Shown piece after piece: positions 41,427 to 50,143 of a stretch of DNA of 64,000 nt (positions are counted from its first letter, which is position 1; each line of letters opens with the position of its first letter). The DNA lies in NCBI GenBank assembly GCA_035544955.1, contig DASZZN010000007.1:1-64000 (forward strand), given 5' to 3'. The translations under genes and the position numbers were made by a program. This DNA comes from Candidatus Dormiibacterota bacterium. Its GTDB lineage: Bacteria; Chloroflexota; Dormibacteria; CF-121. A model generated the notes under the pieces. That model searched no databases, was not told the DNA's origin, and saw only the letters and a program-made list of their open reading frames with translations.

Positions 41427-41930
41427 TCACGCAGCGCGGCGCCGCTCCTCGTCAAGCGCTCGGTACGCGTCCTCCAATTCGATGGTTCGGCTCAAGATGA
41501 GCTCGAGCAGCCGCTCGCGTGATCCGGTCCCACCAGCCGCCGGCCTCCGACCCCCCAGAAGGGCGGTCAGCCTGGCCACGAGCAGGCTCGGAACCCATGT
41601 TTTGTTGATGACGTCATCGGCGCCTACCTCGAGCCCCCGCACGAGGGCTTCGAGGTCCATCCGGCCGGTCAGGAGCACGAATGGCACCTGCGCGAGCCGT
41701 GGGTCGGCTTTGACCCGAACGCACAGCCCGAACCCATCGAGGCGTGGCATATCGATGTCGGACACCACCATGTCGATCGTGTCTTGCATGAGCACCTCCC
41801 AAGCAGCTTCGCCGTCGACGGCAATGATGACCTGGAAGCCTGCCTCCTCGAGCACCAGTTGCGCCCGCTTGGCTTGAGTATGGCTGTCCTCAGCGATCAG
41901 AATTCGCGAAGCTTTCTTAGCGTCGGTCAT
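41427..41930 (-). CDS. single-receiver response regulator with coiled-coil tail
   Basis: 167 residues. The receiver domain has acidic pocket Glu14/Asp15, phospho-acceptor Asp58 (VVSDIDMPRLDGFG), Thr88 and Lys110. There is no DNA-binding or enzymatic output domain; the last 40 residues are a charged helix (ERLLELILSRTIELEDAYRALDEE). It overlaps the cheA gene by 4 bases, so it is the cognate receiver of that kinase. The output partner is unknown. Confidence 0.9.
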   Translation of the reverse strand: MTDAKKASRILIAEDSHTQAKRAQLVLEEAGFQVIIAVDGEAAWEVLMQDTIDMVVSDIDMPRLDGFGLCVRVKADPRLAQVPFVLLTGRMDLEALVRGLEVGADDVINKTWVPSLLVARLTALLGGRRPAAGGTGSRERLLELILSRTIELEDAYRALDEERRRAA

Positions 41931-43570
41931 GCTGCCTCCGCGACCGCCTGAGCGATGCCGGCTGGCGAGAGCGCGTGGTCGATGAGATCGATCGGATTGA
42001 GGATCAGAACGACTTCTCCCGATGGGAGCGTGCTCGCGCCGCTCATCGTGGGCACGAGCGGAAGCAGGGCGGGAAACGGCTTCACAACCAGTTCCTGCTC
42101 GCCCAGCAACGCATCAACTGGAAACGCCACCAGGCCACCGCGGGTCTGAAAGATGACGACCGGCGTCTTCTCTTTTGCCCGCGGGCTCGCGCGCTCGCGC
42201 CAGAAGAGGCTTACCGCCCGCCCGTCCAGGCGGATCGTGGGCTGTCCCTGAACGGTCAAGATCTGCTCCGGCCGGATGAGCGCGGTTCGTTCGATCAATT
42301 CCAGTGGAATTGCCTGGGTACCGCCGAGAGCCCGCACCAGCAGGCATCGCGTGGTGGACAAGGTGAGAGGGACCGAGAGCCGAAACACCGTTCCCTGAGG
42401 ACCGGAGCGCTCGACTATGACCTGCCCGCGCAAAAGCTCCACGGCCTGTCTGACGATGGCGAGACCGAGCCCACGACCCGAGACTTCGCTCGCCTCGGTG
42501 CGGGTCGAAAGGCCGCTCCGAAAGAGCAGTTCGAAGACCTCAGGACCAGAGAGGCCGTCTGCCTGCGCGGCGCTGAGTAGCCCGAGGCGAACCGCCTGTC
42601 CGCGCACCGCGGTGAGATCGATGCCCCGACCGTCGTCCGATATGGTGATGACGACCACGTTTCCTCCTCGGTCCGCCCTCAGCGCCAGGTGGGCGGTCGC
42701 CGGCTTGCCAGCCGACTCCCGCTCGGCAGGCGTTTCGATGCCGTGGTCGATGGCGTTGCGAATGAGATGCAGCAGCGGGTCGCGAAGCGCGTCGAGCACA
42801 CCCTTATCGACGTTCGTCGCTTCGCCTAACAGCTCCAGGTCAACCCGCTTGCCTGTCTCCCGAGTCAGGTCTAAAACCATGCGCTCGAACGATCGGAAAA
42901 GTCCTCCAACGGTCATCATGCGAAGCTCGCGGATGTCGTTGTCCAGCGTGTCGAGCTGCCGACGCATCTCGGCTTGCTGTTGGCGCGCCGACTGGGTGCT
43001 GAGCTTCAGTCGCTGATGGACGTGGTGAAGGTCGTCCGGCCACCCGCCTGACTGCCGCCCGGCCTGCGACCGGCGCCAGCGCTGTTCGGCCGAACTCAGG
43101 CTCGCGGCTAGACCCGTGAGGTCTCGGATTAGCTGGGCCCGTGCTTGCTCCCCCACAAGAAGCGCGCCGACGTCGGCCATCAGCCGGTCGAGTCGCGGCG
43201 TCGCCACTCTGATACTCTCCTCTGCCGATGCACTCGGGACGGCGGAGTGGTCGATCAAGGCACTCAGCTGATCAAGGTGCCCGTACCAGTCGTGCAGCGG
43301 CAGCTCCTCGACGGTTGGTCGCTTGCGCGCTGCGACAATCGCATCCTCGAAAGCATGGGCGACCCCCTCTACGGCGATCGCCGAAACCGAGCGCGCCGCG
43401 CCTTTCAGGCTGTGCACCTCACGAAAGATGTGCTCCACTTGCTGAGCACGCTCCGACCCTGAAGGATTCCGTTCGATTTCGAGCAGAACCCTGGTGATTG
43501 CCTCCAGTCGCTCTCGTGCCTCGGCCCGGTAGGTGGCCATCAGCTCTTGAGTCAGGGCTTCTTCGTTCAT
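41927..43570 (-). CDS. cheA: CheA-type histidine kinase (short form)
   Basis: 547 residues. N-terminal Hpt domain with phospho-His53 (IFREVHSLKGAARS), a long helical region, a dimer helix, HATPase (HLIRNAIDHGIETPAERE, ISDDGRGIDLTAVR, GRGLGLAIVRQAVELLRG) and a C-terminal CheW-like domain (RCLLVRALGGTQAIPLELIERT to VVLILNPIDLIDHAL). There is no obvious P2 (CheY-binding) domain. It is the central kinase of the receptor array encoded by this operon. Its stop overlaps the receiver gene start; the MCP gene is 26 bases upstream. Confidence 0.93.
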   Translation of the reverse strand: MNEEALTQELMATYRAEARERLEAITRVLLEIERNPSGSERAQQVEHIFREVHSLKGAARSVSAIAVEGVAHAFEDAIVAARKRPTVEELPLHDWYGHLDQLSALIDHSAVPSASAEESIRVATPRLDRLMADVGALLVGEQARAQLIRDLTGLAASLSSAEQRWRRSQAGRQSGGWPDDLHHVHQRLKLSTQSARQQQAEMRRQLDTLDNDIRELRMMTVGGLFRSFERMVLDLTRETGKRVDLELLGEATNVDKGVLDALRDPLLHLIRNAIDHGIETPAERESAGKPATAHLALRADRGGNVVVITISDDGRGIDLTAVRGQAVRLGLLSAAQADGLSGPEVFELLFRSGLSTRTEASEVSGRGLGLAIVRQAVELLRGQVIVERSGPQGTVFRLSVPLTLSTTRCLLVRALGGTQAIPLELIERTALIRPEQILTVQGQPTIRLDGRAVSLFWRERASPRAKEKTPVVIFQTRGGLVAFPVDALLGEQELVVKPFPALLPLVPTMSGASTLPSGEVVLILNPIDLIDHALSPAGIAQAVAEAA

Positions 43571-43596
43571 GCTTTCTTTGTTCTCATGCTTCGCCC

Positions 43597-44970
43597 TTAC
43601 GACAGGATGTAACTCCTGGCGAGTTTGCTCATGCGTTCGCTGAGCTCGGTGATGTTTTGAGCGGATAGCTGAGTCTGTCGTGACCCCGCCACTGCCTGGG
43701 CGGTCGCCTGGTTGATCTCGCCCATTGCCACGGCGATCTGCTCCATGCCCACGGTTTGCTGCTGCACTGCGATCGCGATTTGTTCGGCCGTCTGCGCGGT
43801 TCGGCGGATGGTCTCCGAGAGCGATTTGATCGCGGTCCCGGCGCCGTCGACGTTCTTCGATCCGCTCTCGACGCCCTTGAGTCCCTCCTCGGTGACCATG
43901 ACGGCACTGTTCGTCGCCTTCTGAATCTCGCTCAGCAGCTCCCGCACCCGAGTGGTGGCGACCTTGGACTGTTCCGCCAGGTTGCGAACCTCTGAGGCAA
44001 CGACCGCAAATCCTTTTCCGTGCTCCCCCGCGCGGGCCGCTTCGATAGCGGCGTTGAGGGCGAGCAAGTTGGACTGCTCGGCAAAGTCGTTGACGGTGGT
44101 AATGATGTCACCGATTTGCTGGCCCTGTCCGCTCAGCGCCAGGATGTTCTGCGCGATGCCCTCCACTTGCGCCTTGATGGCGGCCATGCTTTCGATCGTC
44201 GATTCGACCGAGCCTCTGCCGTCGTCCGTGGCCTTGACCGAGTCCCGGGCCATGCTCGCCACCTGACCCGAGCGCTGCGAGGTCTGCTCGACGGTGGTAC
44301 GGATCGCGTTGATCGTGGCGGTGGTCTCCTGGATGGCGGTCGCCTGGTTGGCCGCGCTCGAGGTTTGCTCACTGGCGGCGGCCAGGATCTCGGAAACACC
44401 TGAGCCCAGGTCGTTGGTGGCGTCCTGGATCTGGACGGCCAGTTCCCGCAAGTTGGCGTTCATCTTGTTAAGGTCTCGCCCAAGCGCGGCGATCTCCCCA
44501 TTCCCGGACACCTCAAGGGTCCCGCTCAGATCACGGTCGGCGACTCTCGCAACGAAGGCGATGTAGCGCGTGATCGTCTTCGCCGATTCCTCTTTCGCCG
44601 TGCGCTCGCGTTCCGCGAGGTTTCGCTGGCCTTGCATCATCCGAGTGAGGGCGCCCGCCAGGAGCCCGATCTCGTCTTGCCGCGCAAAGCGCGGCGTCTC
44701 GATCAGCTCGCCATCGCCGATCCGGTTTGCCGCGACGGTGATCTGGCCGAGCGGCACCGAGATGCTGCGGGCGATGAACACGCCAATCCCGACCGTGATA
44801 AAGATGGCGAGCACAACAATCAAGCCGACGATCAGTTGAGCGTTCGCGCCCGCACCCCGATTGCTGGCAGTCTCCATCTGCCCCACCTGAACGACGGCGA
44901 CCGCGGCGATGCTGAGCGTCATCAATAGCGTCAACGCGTAGCCAGCAAGGATTCGGGCGAAGATGTTCAT
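43597..44970 (-). CDS. methyl-accepting chemotaxis protein without a periplasmic domain
   Basis: 457 residues. Two membrane helices (about 8-29 and 45-67) are separated by only about 15 residues, so no external sensor domain exists. HAMP and a second HAMP-like segment follow ([23 protein letters not shown]). A long signalling coiled-coil comes next, with the hairpin tip [48 protein letters not shown]. No CheR-docking pentapeptide is at the C-terminus. The ATG at 44970 overlaps the cheW stop by 4 bases; an upstream in-frame extension to 45546 is only a shadow of cheW. The signal must come from inside the cell or the membrane. Confidence 0.92.
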
Positions 44971-45485
44971 GGCCGGGTGGATGCCTCCACAGCCCGGTTC
45001 GTCTGCAGTGCAATGGCCGTCGTTAGCAGCGCGCGAAGGTCGATCGCCGTACGAAGGTCCGGCGTTCGCCCGAGGAACCACGCGGATTGCGGCCCATGAT
45101 CGCGGCGGAGGGTCGCGGGCTCGACGGACAGCAGCCCGTCCAGCCGGTCGACCCAGATCCCTGCAGGTTGCGGAGTGTCGATAACCAGCATGATCGGGAG
45201 CGTCCCCGCACGGGGCGCGCGAATGTTCAGCACGCTTCGCAGATCGAAGACGGGAATCAAGGCTCCCCGCACGTTGGCAATCCCGGCGTAGAGGGCGGGA
45301 ACGTTGGGAAGCGGCGCTAGATGGCTGACCGGTGTCGCCTCCGTGAGCCCTGCCAGGGCGGTGACGAATCCTTCGTCGCCGAGCGTGAAGCCAAGCATCG
45401 TCACTCGGGCGTCGGCACCGTCGCCGAGGGGCATCGCGAGTCGTCGGGCGCGCTCGACCAGGACCTGCTGAGAATCTCGGGTCAT
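44967..45485 (-). CDS. cheW: CheW-like coupling protein (copy 1)
   Basis: 172 residues, a single CheW SH3-like domain: [57 protein letters not shown]. It would link receptors to CheA. It overlaps the upstream cheW copy and the downstream MCP gene by 4 bases each. The first 30 residues ([20 protein letters not shown]) are an extra helix not found in the minimal CheW. Confidence 0.88.
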
Positions 45486-45961
45486 GCCGGAATCTCCGCG
45501 GCCGTGGCGAGTTTCCGTGCGCGTCCCGGCGCGAGCGGCGCGGCATCTAGCAAATGAGCACTGTCCAGGACGAGGTGCAAGAGGCCGCCGCTCGGCGACA
45601 GCCCCTGAATCAGCTCTCCTGAGCGGCGGTCACCCGGCACCGTCAGGACATCGCCGGCTGCCACGTCGAGCGCCTGGTCGACGCCGACGGCGCAGACGCC
45701 CTGGCCAGCCTTAACGATCAAGAGGTGCTGCTCGGGCTGGATTGGCGCCTCCGGCAATCCAAGGAGCCGGCGGAGGTTGATGACCAGGCACGGCGATCCA
45801 TGCAGATCGATAACTCCCAGGACTTGACGGTCGGCGCCGGGAAGCGGCGTGATAGCGGGCATAGCGACAACTTGCTCGACCTGCTCCATCGGCAGCGAGC
45901 AGAGCAGGCCGTCGACGACGAACGTCACCAGGTGCTGGCTCATTTCAGGCCACGGACCCAT
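45482..45961 (-). CDS. cheW: CheW-like coupling protein (copy 2)
   Basis: 159 residues, a CheW domain: [62 protein letters not shown]. It is the first gene of the cheW-cheW-mcp-cheA-receiver block. GGAG lies just before ATG 45961; an internal ATG (45943) is also possible. The two CheW proteins differ strongly from each other. Confidence 0.88.
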
Positions 45962-46007
45962 TGACTCCGTCCACTACTACATAACTTCCTAGTCTGTTAC
46001 TACTCGC

Positions 46008-46025
46008 CACCTATATATGCAGGTG
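46008..46025. repeat. 18-bp palindrome upstream of the cheW block
   Basis: CACCTATATATGCAGGTG: half sites CACCTR/YAGGTG around a TATATG core. It matches 17 of 18 bases with the element at 62677-62694. It lies between the GGDEF-EAL stop and the first cheW, about 50-65 bases before the cheW start. It could be an operator or a promoter for the chemosensory genes. Confidence 0.5.
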
Positions 46026-46034
46026 GCCATCGCC

Positions 46035-48362
46035 CTAGGCGGCGACTGCGACGCCCGGCCTCCAGCCGATGCCACGCTGCAAAAGAGCTTCGAACGCCTT
46101 CGCCTGCAGCGGCGGCGAGAAATAGTAGCCCTGTCCCAGCTCGCAGCCGAGCGAACGCAACAGGCGAAGTTGACCCACCGTTTCGATCCCCTCCGCCACC
46201 GTGGTCAAGTGGAGGGCATCACTCAGGCCGATGATGGCTCGGGCGACGGCTGACTGCTCGGTGCCTTCGGCGATGTCATCGACGAACGCCCGATCGATCT
46301 TGAGGACATCGACTGGGAAGTGACGCAGGTATCCGAGCGAGGAATACCCCGTCCCGAAGTCGTCGATGGCCAGCCGCAGCCCGAGCTGCTTTAGCTCCCG
46401 CAGCCTCCCTACGGTCCCCGCCATGTCCTTCATGAGCACCGATTCGGTGATCTCGAGCACGAGGTCAGCGGGGTTGAACTCGGATTCGTAGAGCATGCGC
46501 GTCAGCTGCCCAAGTAGGTCCGGGTCCTGGAGCTGCCGTGCAGAGACGTTGACGCTCAGGCTGAAGTGGCGACGATCCGGCAAAGCCGCCCTCCACTCGG
46601 TTGCCTGGCGGATTGCCTCCTGCAAGACCCAGCGTCCCAGCGGCACGATCTGCCCGGTTTCCTCCGCGACACCGATGAACTCCGCGGGCGGGATCAGCCC
46701 CTTCACCGGATGGCGCCAGCGGACCAGCGCCTCCGCGCCATCGATGGTCTCCCCCTCGAGCCGAACCACCGGTTGGTAATGCAGCTCGAATTCGTTTCGC
46801 TCGACCGCACGGGCGAGGTCGGCATCCAGTTCGAGGCGGCGCATAACCGCGGCGTGCATCGTCGGCTCGAAGACGACACAGGGCCTGGTGCCCGTCTCCT
46901 TGGCGCGGTACATGGCCGTGTCCGCATTGCGCAGTAGCTCGGATGCGGCCTCTCGCCCATCGCTGCTGGTGGCGACGCCGATGCTGGGATTACTGAAGAT
47001 CTCGTTGCCGCCGATCGTCACGGGCTCGCGCAAGTTGTCGCGGATGCGCTGGGCGACAATGATCACCTCATTCAGGTCGGCCACCCCTTCGACCAGGACG
47101 GCGAACTCGTCGCCGCCAAGTCTGGCCGGCGTATCCACCTCGCGAATCGACCCGCGCAGACGACGCCCTAGCTGGATCAGCAACTGGTCGCCTGCCTCAT
47201 GCCCCAGGCTGTCGTTGACGTTCTTGAAGCGGTCGAGATCGATGAAGAGCACTCCGGTGATCGAGCCGACCTCCCGCCGCGCCCGAGCGAGCGCGTGCTC
47301 GAGCCGATCCAGGAAGAGCGTGCGGTTGGGCAGATCGGTGAGCGCATCGTGCAAGACCTGGTGCTGCATGGCAGCCGCCATCTTGGAGTCAGTCAGCGCG
47401 AGGCTGGCATGTTCGGCGAAAGCGACCAGCGTGTCCTGCTCCGCGGGCGTGAAGACGCGGCCGGCCTCGCGCGAGGCCACCGTGAGACTACCCACGACCC
47501 GCCCGGTCTCTCGTACGGGCGCGGCCATCGCGACCTGGACACCGTCGCGGACGAGGGCGGCGACCCCTCCCTCGAACCGCGGGTAATCCGCAATGACCAC
47601 CAGATGGTCCTCCGCCACCGACCGACTACTGGCGCCGCGAGACGAGGGTTCCAGCGCCATCTCAGCGAGCACCTCGGGGGCGAGGCCGACCTGCGCCAGA
47701 ATGACGAGGGCGTCCGCGTTGGCCTCGTCGCGCAAGCGGAAGCTGGCGATCTCCGCGTTGACGAGCTCGCTGGCGCCCCGGACGATCGCGTCGAGTACCT
47801 CGGTGAACGGAGCGCGATGCGAGATCGACTGCCCGATCTTGGCCAGACGTTCGAGTAGGGTCTGCCGTTCCTGCAATTGACGCACCAGGCGCACGTTCTC
47901 TCGGCTTTGCGCATCACTACGGGCGCGCAGGTGGCGCTCTTCCTCGAGCGCCGCGAGCGAGCGGACCGTCAGCGCAAGGCCGCGACCCATCGCCCGCAAA
48001 AGGACCGCCTCCTCGCGGACGAATTCCGAAGCTCCGGTCCGTGCCACCAGCAGACGGGCATCTTTCGGAGTTTCCAATGCCACGATGGAGACGCGGCAGA
48101 CCCCAAGTGACGGCAGCTCGATCGTGGCGGAGTCTTGTGCGGCAGCCCTACATAGCAGCGCTGTGGGGATATCGTTCGCCGGAAATCCGACCGCGGCCAG
48201 GACAACATCGCCCTGAACGACGGCGGCAACCTCCGCCTCAAGCGCCTCGGCGACCCGTTCGACGGCCCCGGTGAGCGCACCCGCACGGTCTGAGTAGGAC
48301 GCGATGGCGGTGAGGAACTCGGCGAGCTGTTGGGTCGACCAACCACCGGAGTAGGTCGACAT
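46035..48362 (-). CDS. GAF-GGDEF-EAL bifunctional c-di-GMP protein
   Basis: 775 residues, no membrane helix. An N-terminal region (1-150) is followed by a GAF domain (about 165-325), then GGDEF and EAL. The active-site loop RLGGDEFAVLVEG (about residue 417) is intact, and a RxxD inhibitory site (REVD) lies five residues before it. The EAL domain keeps EALVRWRHP, NVSARQLQDPD, LEITESVLM, DDFGTGYSSLGYLRHFP, KIDRAFV and AEGIE, so both synthesis and hydrolysis of c-di-GMP are possible. It starts 2 bases after the FIST gene, so they are coupled. It precedes the chemosensory block on the same strand. Confidence 0.93.
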   Translation of the reverse strand: MSTYSGGWSTQQLAEFLTAIASYSDRAGALTGAVERVAEALEAEVAAVVQGDVVLAAVGFPANDIPTALLCRAAAQDSATIELPSLGVCRVSIVALETPKDARLLVARTGASEFVREEAVLLRAMGRGLALTVRSLAALEEERHLRARSDAQSRENVRLVRQLQERQTLLERLAKIGQSISHRAPFTEVLDAIVRGASELVNAEIASFRLRDEANADALVILAQVGLAPEVLAEMALEPSSRGASSRSVAEDHLVVIADYPRFEGGVAALVRDGVQVAMAAPVRETGRVVGSLTVASREAGRVFTPAEQDTLVAFAEHASLALTDSKMAAAMQHQVLHDALTDLPNRTLFLDRLEHALARARREVGSITGVLFIDLDRFKNVNDSLGHEAGDQLLIQLGRRLRGSIREVDTPARLGGDEFAVLVEGVADLNEVIIVAQRIRDNLREPVTIGGNEIFSNPSIGVATSSDGREAASELLRNADTAMYRAKETGTRPCVVFEPTMHAAVMRRLELDADLARAVERNEFELHYQPVVRLEGETIDGAEALVRWRHPVKGLIPPAEFIGVAEETGQIVPLGRWVLQEAIRQATEWRAALPDRRHFSLSVNVSARQLQDPDLLGQLTRMLYESEFNPADLVLEITESVLMKDMAGTVGRLRELKQLGLRLAIDDFGTGYSSLGYLRHFPVDVLKIDRAFVDDIAEGTEQSAVARAIIGLSDALHLTTVAEGIETVGQLRLLRSLGCELGQGYYFSPPLQAKAFEALLQRGIGWRPGVAVAA

Positions 48363-48364
48363 CG

Positions 48365-49579
48365 TCAGCTCAGCGCGAGAATTACCAGCGTCTGATTGTG
48401 AAAACCACTGACGCCATTCGTGCGCGCGATCTCGCCATACGTATAGAACCCGGCGATGGGCGCGCCGCCGGCATGGAGGCCGATGCGCGACACCTCGCGG
48501 CGAATCCCCTCGTCGCCCAGCACGCCGCGCCGGGCGATGCAGTCGAAGGCGAGGAACCCGACCGGGCGGTGACCATCGAGGGAGGCCAGCGCATCGGAGC
48601 AGGCCGCGTCAGTGGCCTCGAGCACCGACGTGTCGTCGCCCTCCATGAACCAGGCCAGGCCACCCTGCGGGACGCCGGCGATGCAGATGAGTGACCGGTC
48701 CTCGAAATTGGCTTCGCCAACGAAGCGGACCTCCTCGCCGCTACGCCGGCTGAGGCCGAGGGGGTGGGTGATCGCAAACCGGGTGAAGGCCGCGGCATCC
48801 GTTCGAGCGCTGGCCGGCGCGTTGAGGCGATCCAGGTAAATGTCGAGCGCAGGCTTGTCGTCGAGGGTATGGACCCGGTTGTCGGCACTGCCTGTGACCA
48901 GCATCGGTTCGCCGACGCGCCGCCAACCATGCCGAACGCCGATGCCCATCGGGGAATCCGAGGCAATCGCTGCCCCAACGACGGCATCGGTTACCACCTG
49001 GGTGCCGTGGAATTGGTACGTCCGTTTCATCTTGAGGTCGTCGCCGGCGCAGCCTCCCACCAGGGGGACGGCCGCGCCAACGACTGAGTAGGCACCTCGG
49101 ACGACCTCCTGCTGGTCGCCGGAAAGGCCGTCGCTGAGGAGCATCAAGACTTTGTGCGGGCGCTCGGCCAGGCGAGATACCGACGCTGCGACCTCCGCGC
49201 TCGCCAAACGAAGGCGCCCGGAGGCGCCAGTCGCCAGCGCCGTTGCGATCGAGAAGCCCTCGCCGCCTAACGCCGTCACAACCACGCTGGAATCCCCGGG
49301 GCCGGAGACACCGATCTCACCCGCTGTCGAGCATCCGATGAGCGGCGCGCCACCCGACCGTTCGCTGATCGTTCGGATCAGCAGCTCCAGGTCGTAGGCA
49401 TCAGAGCAGAACACCACGAGGAGGCTCGCCTTGTCCTGCTCGAGTGCCTGGCCGGCCGCCTCCTCGCCAGCCGACCGGGCATCACCCGCTGCCGATCGGC
49501 CGACGCGCATCCACCGACGCGGGCCCGTGTCCACCATAGGCCAGAACTCAGTGGGCCTTGATTGCTTCGCAAAGCCCAT
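48365..49579 (-). CDS. FIST-domain sensory protein
   Basis: 404 residues. N-terminal FIST_N features (SLLVVFCSDAYDLELLIRTI, GAPLIGCSTAGEIGVSG, LLSDGLSGDQQEVVRGAYSVVGAAVPLVGGCAGD) and the C-terminal FIST_C end (GRPVGFLAF-like RPVGFLAFDCIARRG, APIAGFYTYGEIARTNG, FHNQTLVIL). FIST proteins are cytosolic sensor modules thought to bind small molecules, often next to signalling genes. It is the first gene of this leftward cluster, directly coupled to the GGDEF-EAL gene. The start is uncertain; ATG 49510 (MRVGRSAAGD) fits the family N-terminus as well. Confidence 0.85.
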   Translation of the reverse strand: MGFAKQSRPTEFWPMVDTGPRRWMRVGRSAAGDARSAGEEAAGQALEQDKASLLVVFCSDAYDLELLIRTISERSGGAPLIGCSTAGEIGVSGPGDSSVVVTALGGEGFSIATALATGASGRLRLASAEVAASVSRLAERPHKVLMLLSDGLSGDQQEVVRGAYSVVGAAVPLVGGCAGDDLKMKRTYQFHGTQVVTDAVVGAAIASDSPMGIGVRHGWRRVGEPMLVTGSADNRVHTLDDKPALDIYLDRLNAPASARTDAAAFTRFAITHPLGLSRRSGEEVRFVGEANFEDRSLICIAGVPQGGLAWFMEGDDTSVLEATDAACSDALASLDGHRPVGFLAFDCIARRGVLGDEGIRREVSRIGLHAGGAPIAGFYTYGEIARTNGVSGFHNQTLVILALS

Positions 49580-49618: not shown

Positions 49619-49957
49619 TCATCTTCCCTGATCCCGAGACCTCGTCAATCCTCGCGGCGCCTTCAGTCGCCACGCCGCTGTGATCAGCTCGCGAACTACC
49701 CGGGCATCAGCCAGGGGCAGCGTCAGCTGGACGGCGCGGATCTGTTTCCCCCACCAAAACTCCCGGCACACGCCTGGGTGATCGTTCACCGCGATCCGGA
49801 TCTGATGCAGGTCGAGCATGACGTTGACGCGTTCCGGGTCCCAGAGGGTTGCGAAGATCTTCCCGCGGACCCGAAAGGAGGGCCGGCCGTGGTGGTCCTG
49901 CTCAGTCGCTTCGGGGAGCGACAGCGCTGTCCGGCGCAGCTGGCGGACGGACGTCAT
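49619..49957 (-). CDS. MmcQ/YjbR-family protein
   Basis: 112 residues. LRRTALSLPEATEQDHHGRPSFRVRGKIFATLWDPERVNVML is the family hallmark, with HPGVCREFWWGKQIRAVQLTLPLADARVVRELITAAWRL at the C-terminus. The fold resembles a double-wing DNA-binding motif; the function is unknown. It is a single gene facing away from the SidA remnant. Confidence 0.8.
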   Translation of the reverse strand: MTSVRQLRRTALSLPEATEQDHHGRPSFRVRGKIFATLWDPERVNVMLDLHQIRIAVNDHPGVCREFWWGKQIRAVQLTLPLADARVVRELITAAWRLKAPRGLTRSRDQGR

Positions 49958-50011: not shown

Positions 50012-50143
50012 ATGCTGGACGCGGTCGGGGTAGGGGTAGGTCCGTTTAATCTCAGCCTAGCCGCCCTGTTGGCTCCGACGGGCTTCAACGCGCGATTCTT
50101 CGAGAGGAGCTCGGTCTTCGATTTCGATAAGACCGGCAAATGA
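50012..50143 (+). pseudogene. N-terminal fragment of a lysine/ornithine N-monooxygenase (SidA/IucD-like)
   Basis: 43 residues: MLDAVGVGVGPFNLSLAALL and then NARFFERSSVFDFDKTGK before TGA. The segment GVGVGPFNLSLAAL is the FAD-binding start typical of siderophore N-hydroxylases, and FFER matches the next strand. The remaining 400 or so residues are absent. The TGA overlaps the ATG of the next gene (ATGA), so the fragment may now serve as a translated leader. No other siderophore gene is in the window. Confidence 0.65.

Follow-up and report, generated by a model that had tools for sequence, protein, structure and literature searches.

A reduced ACF/Wsp-type chemosensory gene set beside a FIST/GGDEF-EAL module in a Candidatus Dormiibacterota genome

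What might a chemosensory core control when its genes lie beside those of a FIST sensor and a c-di-GMP enzyme and include no adaptation enzyme? This question is raised by a block at positions 41427-49579, on the minus strand of the window, which here means the whole 64,000-nucleotide stretch of Candidatus Dormiibacterota DNA that was analysed. An earlier note, made from the DNA letters, had described seven leftward genes encoding a FIST sensor, a GAF-GGDEF-EAL protein, two CheW proteins, an MCP, a CheA, and a lone receiver. All seven ORFs were found, and their Pfam domain calls, which were far above chance in every case, bore this description out. The features are listed below in the direction of reading.

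48365..49579, minus strand: FIST sensor protein of the NosP superfamily, 404 aa (Pfam FIST, 1.5e-49; FIST_C, 2.8e-27)
46035..48362, minus strand: GAF-GGDEF-EAL c-di-GMP enzyme, 775 aa (Pfam EAL, 2.1e-75; GGDEF, 4.9e-46; GAF_2, 1.7e-10)
46006..46027, no strand: dyad GCCACCT-8-AGGTGGC with 7-bp arms, read from the sequence within the 73-bp intermodule gap
45482..45961, minus strand: CheW 1, 159 aa (Pfam CheW, 2.6e-21)
44967..45485, minus strand: CheW 2, 172 aa (Pfam CheW, 1.1e-16)
43597..44970, minus strand: MCP, 457 aa (Pfam MCPsignal, 4.2e-40; HAMP, 6.6e-14)
41927..43570, minus strand: CheA, 547 aa (Pfam Hpt, HATPase_c, and CheW)
41427..41930, minus strand: lone receiver with a helical tail, 167 aa (Pfam Response_reg, 2.8e-22)

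The FIST and GGDEF-EAL genes are separated by 2 bp and the MCP and CheA genes by 26 bp, and 4-base overlaps were found between the two CheW genes, between CheW 2 and the MCP gene, and between the CheA and receiver genes. The tiny gaps and 4-base overlaps previously ascribed to the block are thus present at most junctions, except before CheW 1, where 73 bp containing the dyad, a possible operator or hairpin, follow the GGDEF-EAL gene. Because of this uneven spacing, the block may consist of two transcription units; the FIST and GAF-GGDEF-EAL genes are referred to below as Module A and the five genes from CheW 1 to the receiver as Module B. The transcript may start with a YjbR-family gene, located at 49619-49957 on the same (minus) strand, 39 bp upstream of the FIST gene. 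A sigma-70 promoter scan gave no site, its result being no more than chance, and an Rfam search over the window gave two tRNAs and nothing else.

Close orthologs of the FIST protein (63-75% identical) were found in 10 genomes, nine of them from Dormibacteria of another family and one (G211) from another class. In all 10 genomes a GAF-GGDEF-EAL gene, whose product is 45-51% identical to that of the window, directly adjoins the FIST gene, and no gene for CheW, MCP, CheA, or this receiver occurs in the stretches around the pair. Since the two genes are paired in every close relative in the absence of chemosensory genes, they form an established unit, a conserved module of Dormibacteria. On the other hand, distant FIST genes (31-39% identical) had no GAF-GGDEF-EAL neighbour in any of 12 stretches. 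By eye, the catalytic residues of the enzyme's EAL domain were intact, as were the GGDEF motif and the RxxD I-site. The copy in G211 (locus L095, contig C46), with a FIST protein 65% and an enzyme 46% identical to those of the window, suggests that the pair has moved horizontally.

Both the N and C domains that mark membership of the NosP superfamily were found in the FIST protein, and in an alignment that included annotated NosP the C-terminal His394-Asn-x-Thr and Cys347 were invariant and His217 was conserved; the two histidines were noted with regard to haem binding and NO response. Its score against the NCBIfam NosP equivalog model was 124.5 bits, the cut-off being 450. The protein shares a superfamily with NosP without being a NosP equivalog, and nitric oxide is therefore not implied as its ligand. 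NosP, with the NosK/NahK kinases, is likewise encoded beside a c-di-GMP-related partner (PMC12570481); in contrast, the FIST protein of the window, far under that cut-off, has a GAF-GGDEF-EAL enzyme and no canonical kinase as its partner. No relatives of the FIST protein were found in viral contigs, and a PDB sequence search with it returned nothing.

In Module B, the MCP has two transmembrane segments with a short loop between them, two HAMP stretches, and a signalling domain, and retains a consensus methylation site. It has no outside ligand domain; alignment showed that the CHASE3 region of its homolog in the nearest relative is missing. CheA contains neither P2 nor REC, as judged by Pfam and by alignment with the CheA:REC of the same relative; loss of P2 is common, more than half of CheA proteins being without it (PMC10782961). 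The CheA phosphorylation site His53 (HSLKGAAR), its ATP-binding boxes, and Asp58 of the receiver were intact by eye.

This nearest relative is Candidatus Dormiibacterota palsa_871 (G036, PLZA01000046; loci L033/L061), a member of the same class, Dormibacteria, in which the best matches for CheA (43-46%), the MCP (about 60%, and 62% over the signalling part), and the receiver (49%) all lie in one operon. According to Pfam, the operon reads CheW - CheR/TPR - CheW - CHASE3-HAMP-MCP - CheA:REC - CheB - REC-HisKA-HATPase-REC-REC-Hpt, and a PAS-GGDEF-EAL-REC gene is located near it. Other copies in Dormibacteria have REC-GGDEF-EAL at the end (L036 and L044) or a REC-GGDEF gene (L037, L041, and L077). 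CheR and/or CheB was encoded near CheA in 17 of the 18 related clusters examined, the exception being L043, which has the Tfp-like order REC, REC, CheW, MCP, CheA:REC. L043 (G117:C2:6000-24000) belongs to another genome of the phylum and has no CheR or CheB nearby. When genome contigs were scanned with the CheA alignment, only three loci were obtained, one of them G036 itself. A Bacteroidales MAG carries CheW-CheR-CheW-MCP-MCP-CheA:REC-CheB-REC:HK (L062, 4266-14600), a layout as in H-type Wsp. CheR-TPR is a marker of the ACF type, to which all chemosensory pathways of Chloroflexi have been assigned (PMC3447774); a REC-GGDEF output corresponds to WspR and REC-HK to WspH (PMC8552884). In the relatives, the output receiver carries GGDEF, GGDEF-EAL, or a kinase as its fusion partner, which makes c-di-GMP the recurring output of these systems. 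Judged from these sequence comparisons, the CheW-CheW-MCP-CheA-receiver set is a reduced derivative of the ACF/Wsp-like group.

In a REC tree, the lone receiver grouped with the REC of the G036 REC:HK protein (support 100/96) and next with REC:GGDEF:EAL and a REC:HK from Bacteroidales (99/97); the RECs fused to CheA stood separately (100/97). Its similarity to the relatives extended into the helical tail, which aligned with the linker of output regulators. The lone receiver is a truncated descendant of a multidomain output response regulator; the surviving REC is the output receiver, and the CheA-fused REC the one that disappeared. The tail had earlier been proposed to contact the output. Since the similarity runs into it, the tail is the old linker, left over from the multidomain response regulator. 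A Tfp-class (Pil-Chp) assignment was rejected: the block has a single receiver and its CheA carries no REC, where L043 shows the paired receivers and CheA:REC of the Tfp-type gene set, and the placement in the REC tree also speaks against it, although type IV pilus genes are present in the genome.

The genome (3.67 Mb in 52 contigs, 95.4% complete) contains exactly one MCP gene, that of the block. Genome-wide searches with working positive controls gave no CheR, no CheB, no PilZ, and no FlhA, the flagellar export marker. The absence of CheR, CheB, and flagellar genes that the earlier note had reported for the cluster thus extends, for these markers, to the whole genome; its statement that no pilus gene is present holds for the cluster and fails for the genome, in which type IV pilus genes were the only ones found among those it had proposed to look for elsewhere. 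A flagellar chemotaxis system was rejected because FlhA is missing, and the non-flagellar output that had been suggested is likely. A CheR or CheB gene could be hidden in the missing 4-5% of the genome; against this, the relatives carry both genes within the operon, and the operon is intact here.

The R-type (WspR, REC-GGDEF) and H-type (WspH, REC-HK) Wsp systems share with Module B two CheW proteins, one MCP, one CheA, a dedicated output receiver, and c-di-GMP as the recurring output (PMC8552884). In contrast, the window has no WspC (CheR), no WspF (CheB), no REC fused to the C terminus of CheA, no periplasmic CHASE3 sensor in the MCP, and no output half in the response regulator. The palsa_871 operon, to which the CheA, MCP, and receiver are closest, differs in having CheR-TPR, CheB, CheA:REC, a CHASE3 MCP, and REC:HK, and it has no FIST gene. 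Che3 of Rhodospirillum centenum (CheA3/CheS3), which controls cyst formation, is also an ACF pathway with one MCP and two CheW proteins; however, it retains CheR, CheB, CheA:REC, and, as a REC-kinase output encoded in the cluster, CheS3 (PMC3868531). A precedent for the double loss is provided by the Synechocystis chemosensory systems for pili, whose core works without CheR and CheB (PMC4758948); these are pilus-type clusters, whereas the CheA and MCP of the window are closest to ACF systems of their own class. The most fitting description of the block is an adaptation-free, reduced ACF/Wsp-type derivative located beside a FIST/GGDEF-EAL module. It does not count as a full Wsp system, because CheR and CheB, the CheA REC, and a multidomain output regulator, which define such a system, were looked for and are missing. 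The combination of a chemosensory core with c-di-GMP is already known; new, as far as searched, are the reduction of the core and a FIST gene as its neighbour. In agreement with the earlier note, no description of this exact gene combination was found in the open-licence papers searched, and each half is of a known kind.

The earlier note had also proposed that genomes be searched for the same gene order. None was found in the genomes searched, and Modules A and B are adjacent in this genome only. The search covered 400 genomes of the phylum; FIST and CheA matches occurred together in 13 others, never side by side but on different contigs or, in G207, 0.65 Mb apart. Separate contigs also carry the two in G100, G109, and G082 of the same class. 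In the 17 other genomes of the family, neither a CheA nor a FIST match was obtained at the thresholds used. DNA matches to these 17 genomes end near 39.53 kb and restart near 50.0 kb; the exceptions in between are a gene at 39.65-40.94 kb, which is located elsewhere in the sister genomes, and generic GGDEF-EAL similarity. In the genome of a sister species (G003), a distance of about 0.7 kb separates the two edges, which lie between a FAD-linked-oxidase-like gene (named by eye) and an intact lysine/ornithine-monooxygenase-like gene (domain found; L118, 2015-3568). At the same place in the window, the lysine/ornithine N-monooxygenase gene is cut off after about 37 N-terminal codons (50012-50122, plus strand), and this remnant marks the right edge of a replaced segment. 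Since the family matches stop and resume, the edges lie close together in G003, and the monooxygenase gene is truncated, the operon is contained in a replaced or inserted segment of approximately 10.5 kb. The GC content of the block is in line with that of its surroundings, so composition cannot date its arrival.

The best explanation of the whole, which we hold tentatively, is that two modules of different origin were joined as one c-di-GMP controller. The FIST protein would most likely bind a small cytoplasmic ligand and adjust the GAF-GGDEF-EAL enzyme. Lacking an outside ligand domain, the MCP would sense a membrane or cytoplasmic cue, and it would switch CheA through both CheW proteins; CheA would then probably phosphorylate the lone receiver. 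The enzyme half of the receiver itself is gone and the GGDEF-EAL protein is encoded in the block, which makes this protein the simplest surviving output, on which the receiver may act in trans. Since no CheR or CheB was found and CheA has no fused REC, the array would report the level of its signal without methylation-based adaptation. The specific reading that an array permanently devoid of methylation adaptation and of its own ligand domain and output enzyme is a non-adapting level reporter, whose receiver and the FIST protein tune one GGDEF-EAL enzyme in trans, is rather unlikely. If working, the system would be a minimal array that occurs naturally, with one MCP, two CheW proteins, one CheA, and one receiver, and no further MCP is encoded in the genome; the behaviour of a receptor array without adaptation would thereby become directly testable. 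The FIST/GAF-GGDEF-EAL pair, a conserved Dormibacteria module, could have its ligand assayed.

The coupling of Module A to Module B is inferred, and the adjacency in a single genome and the 73-bp gap with its dyad count against a joint controller. The same observations, together with the occurrence of Module A alone in 10 relatives and the separation of FIST and CheA in all 13 other genomes having both, favour two independent neighbours, in which FIST would act on the GGDEF-EAL enzyme and the MCP-CheA-receiver set on an unrelated partner such as the pilus machinery or another kinase. This alternative is unlikely but deserves serious weight; the common strand, the close spacing, the location of both modules in one segment absent from the rest of the family, and a receiver that has no output of its own right beside a c-di-GMP enzyme argue against it. 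The earlier note had proposed that an intracellular ligand sensed by FIST or GAF may be passed both to c-di-GMP turnover and to the array. Read as direct signalling by FIST to the enzyme and the array, this model would make the MCP a relay of a cytoplasmic signal. A cytoplasmic input is plausible for an MCP with two HAMP stretches and no outside ligand domain, and NosP-type FIST proteins act on separate kinases (PMC12570481). However, the link to the enzyme is upheld by the pairing in all 10 relatives, whereas that to the array rests on one genome; a pairing of this FIST with an MCP or CheA was seen in no other genome, its conserved partner being the enzyme, and the model as a whole is improbable. 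Least probable is that Module B, once acquired as an ACF operon, is now decaying and has no function. In favour of this, it has fewer parts than its nearest relatives and the family members have no such system; against it, whole genes and domains are gone without frameshifts or stops, and none of the five ORFs left is damaged, their 4-base overlaps and key residues being conserved or in place.

With the joint c-di-GMP controller, the change in c-di-GMP would most likely target type IV pili and surface attachment. A pilus output is possible because pilus genes are present elsewhere in the genome, on contig 12; their location on another contig, unlinked to the block, weighs against the joint controller. 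They encode a PilM-like protein, T2SSF (PilC), a PilB that carries an MshEN domain, and a PilT-like ATPase. According to the published definition of the c-di-GMP-binding motif of the MshEN domain (PMC5013675), PilB contains one perfect motif, RLGELLLEHGLLTAEQLESALAAQ, and, 5 residues on, a near match with R changed to P and Q to H. Within this genome, the pilus motor PilB is a plausible candidate for a target of c-di-GMP. Near the pilus genes lie a GGDEF gene and a gene for a REC-HD-GYP protein (L045, G000:C12:217000-234798). Five more T2SSE-family ATPase genes, possibly of the Tad/CpaF type, were found in the same genome (L027-L031, on contigs C45, C12, and C8).
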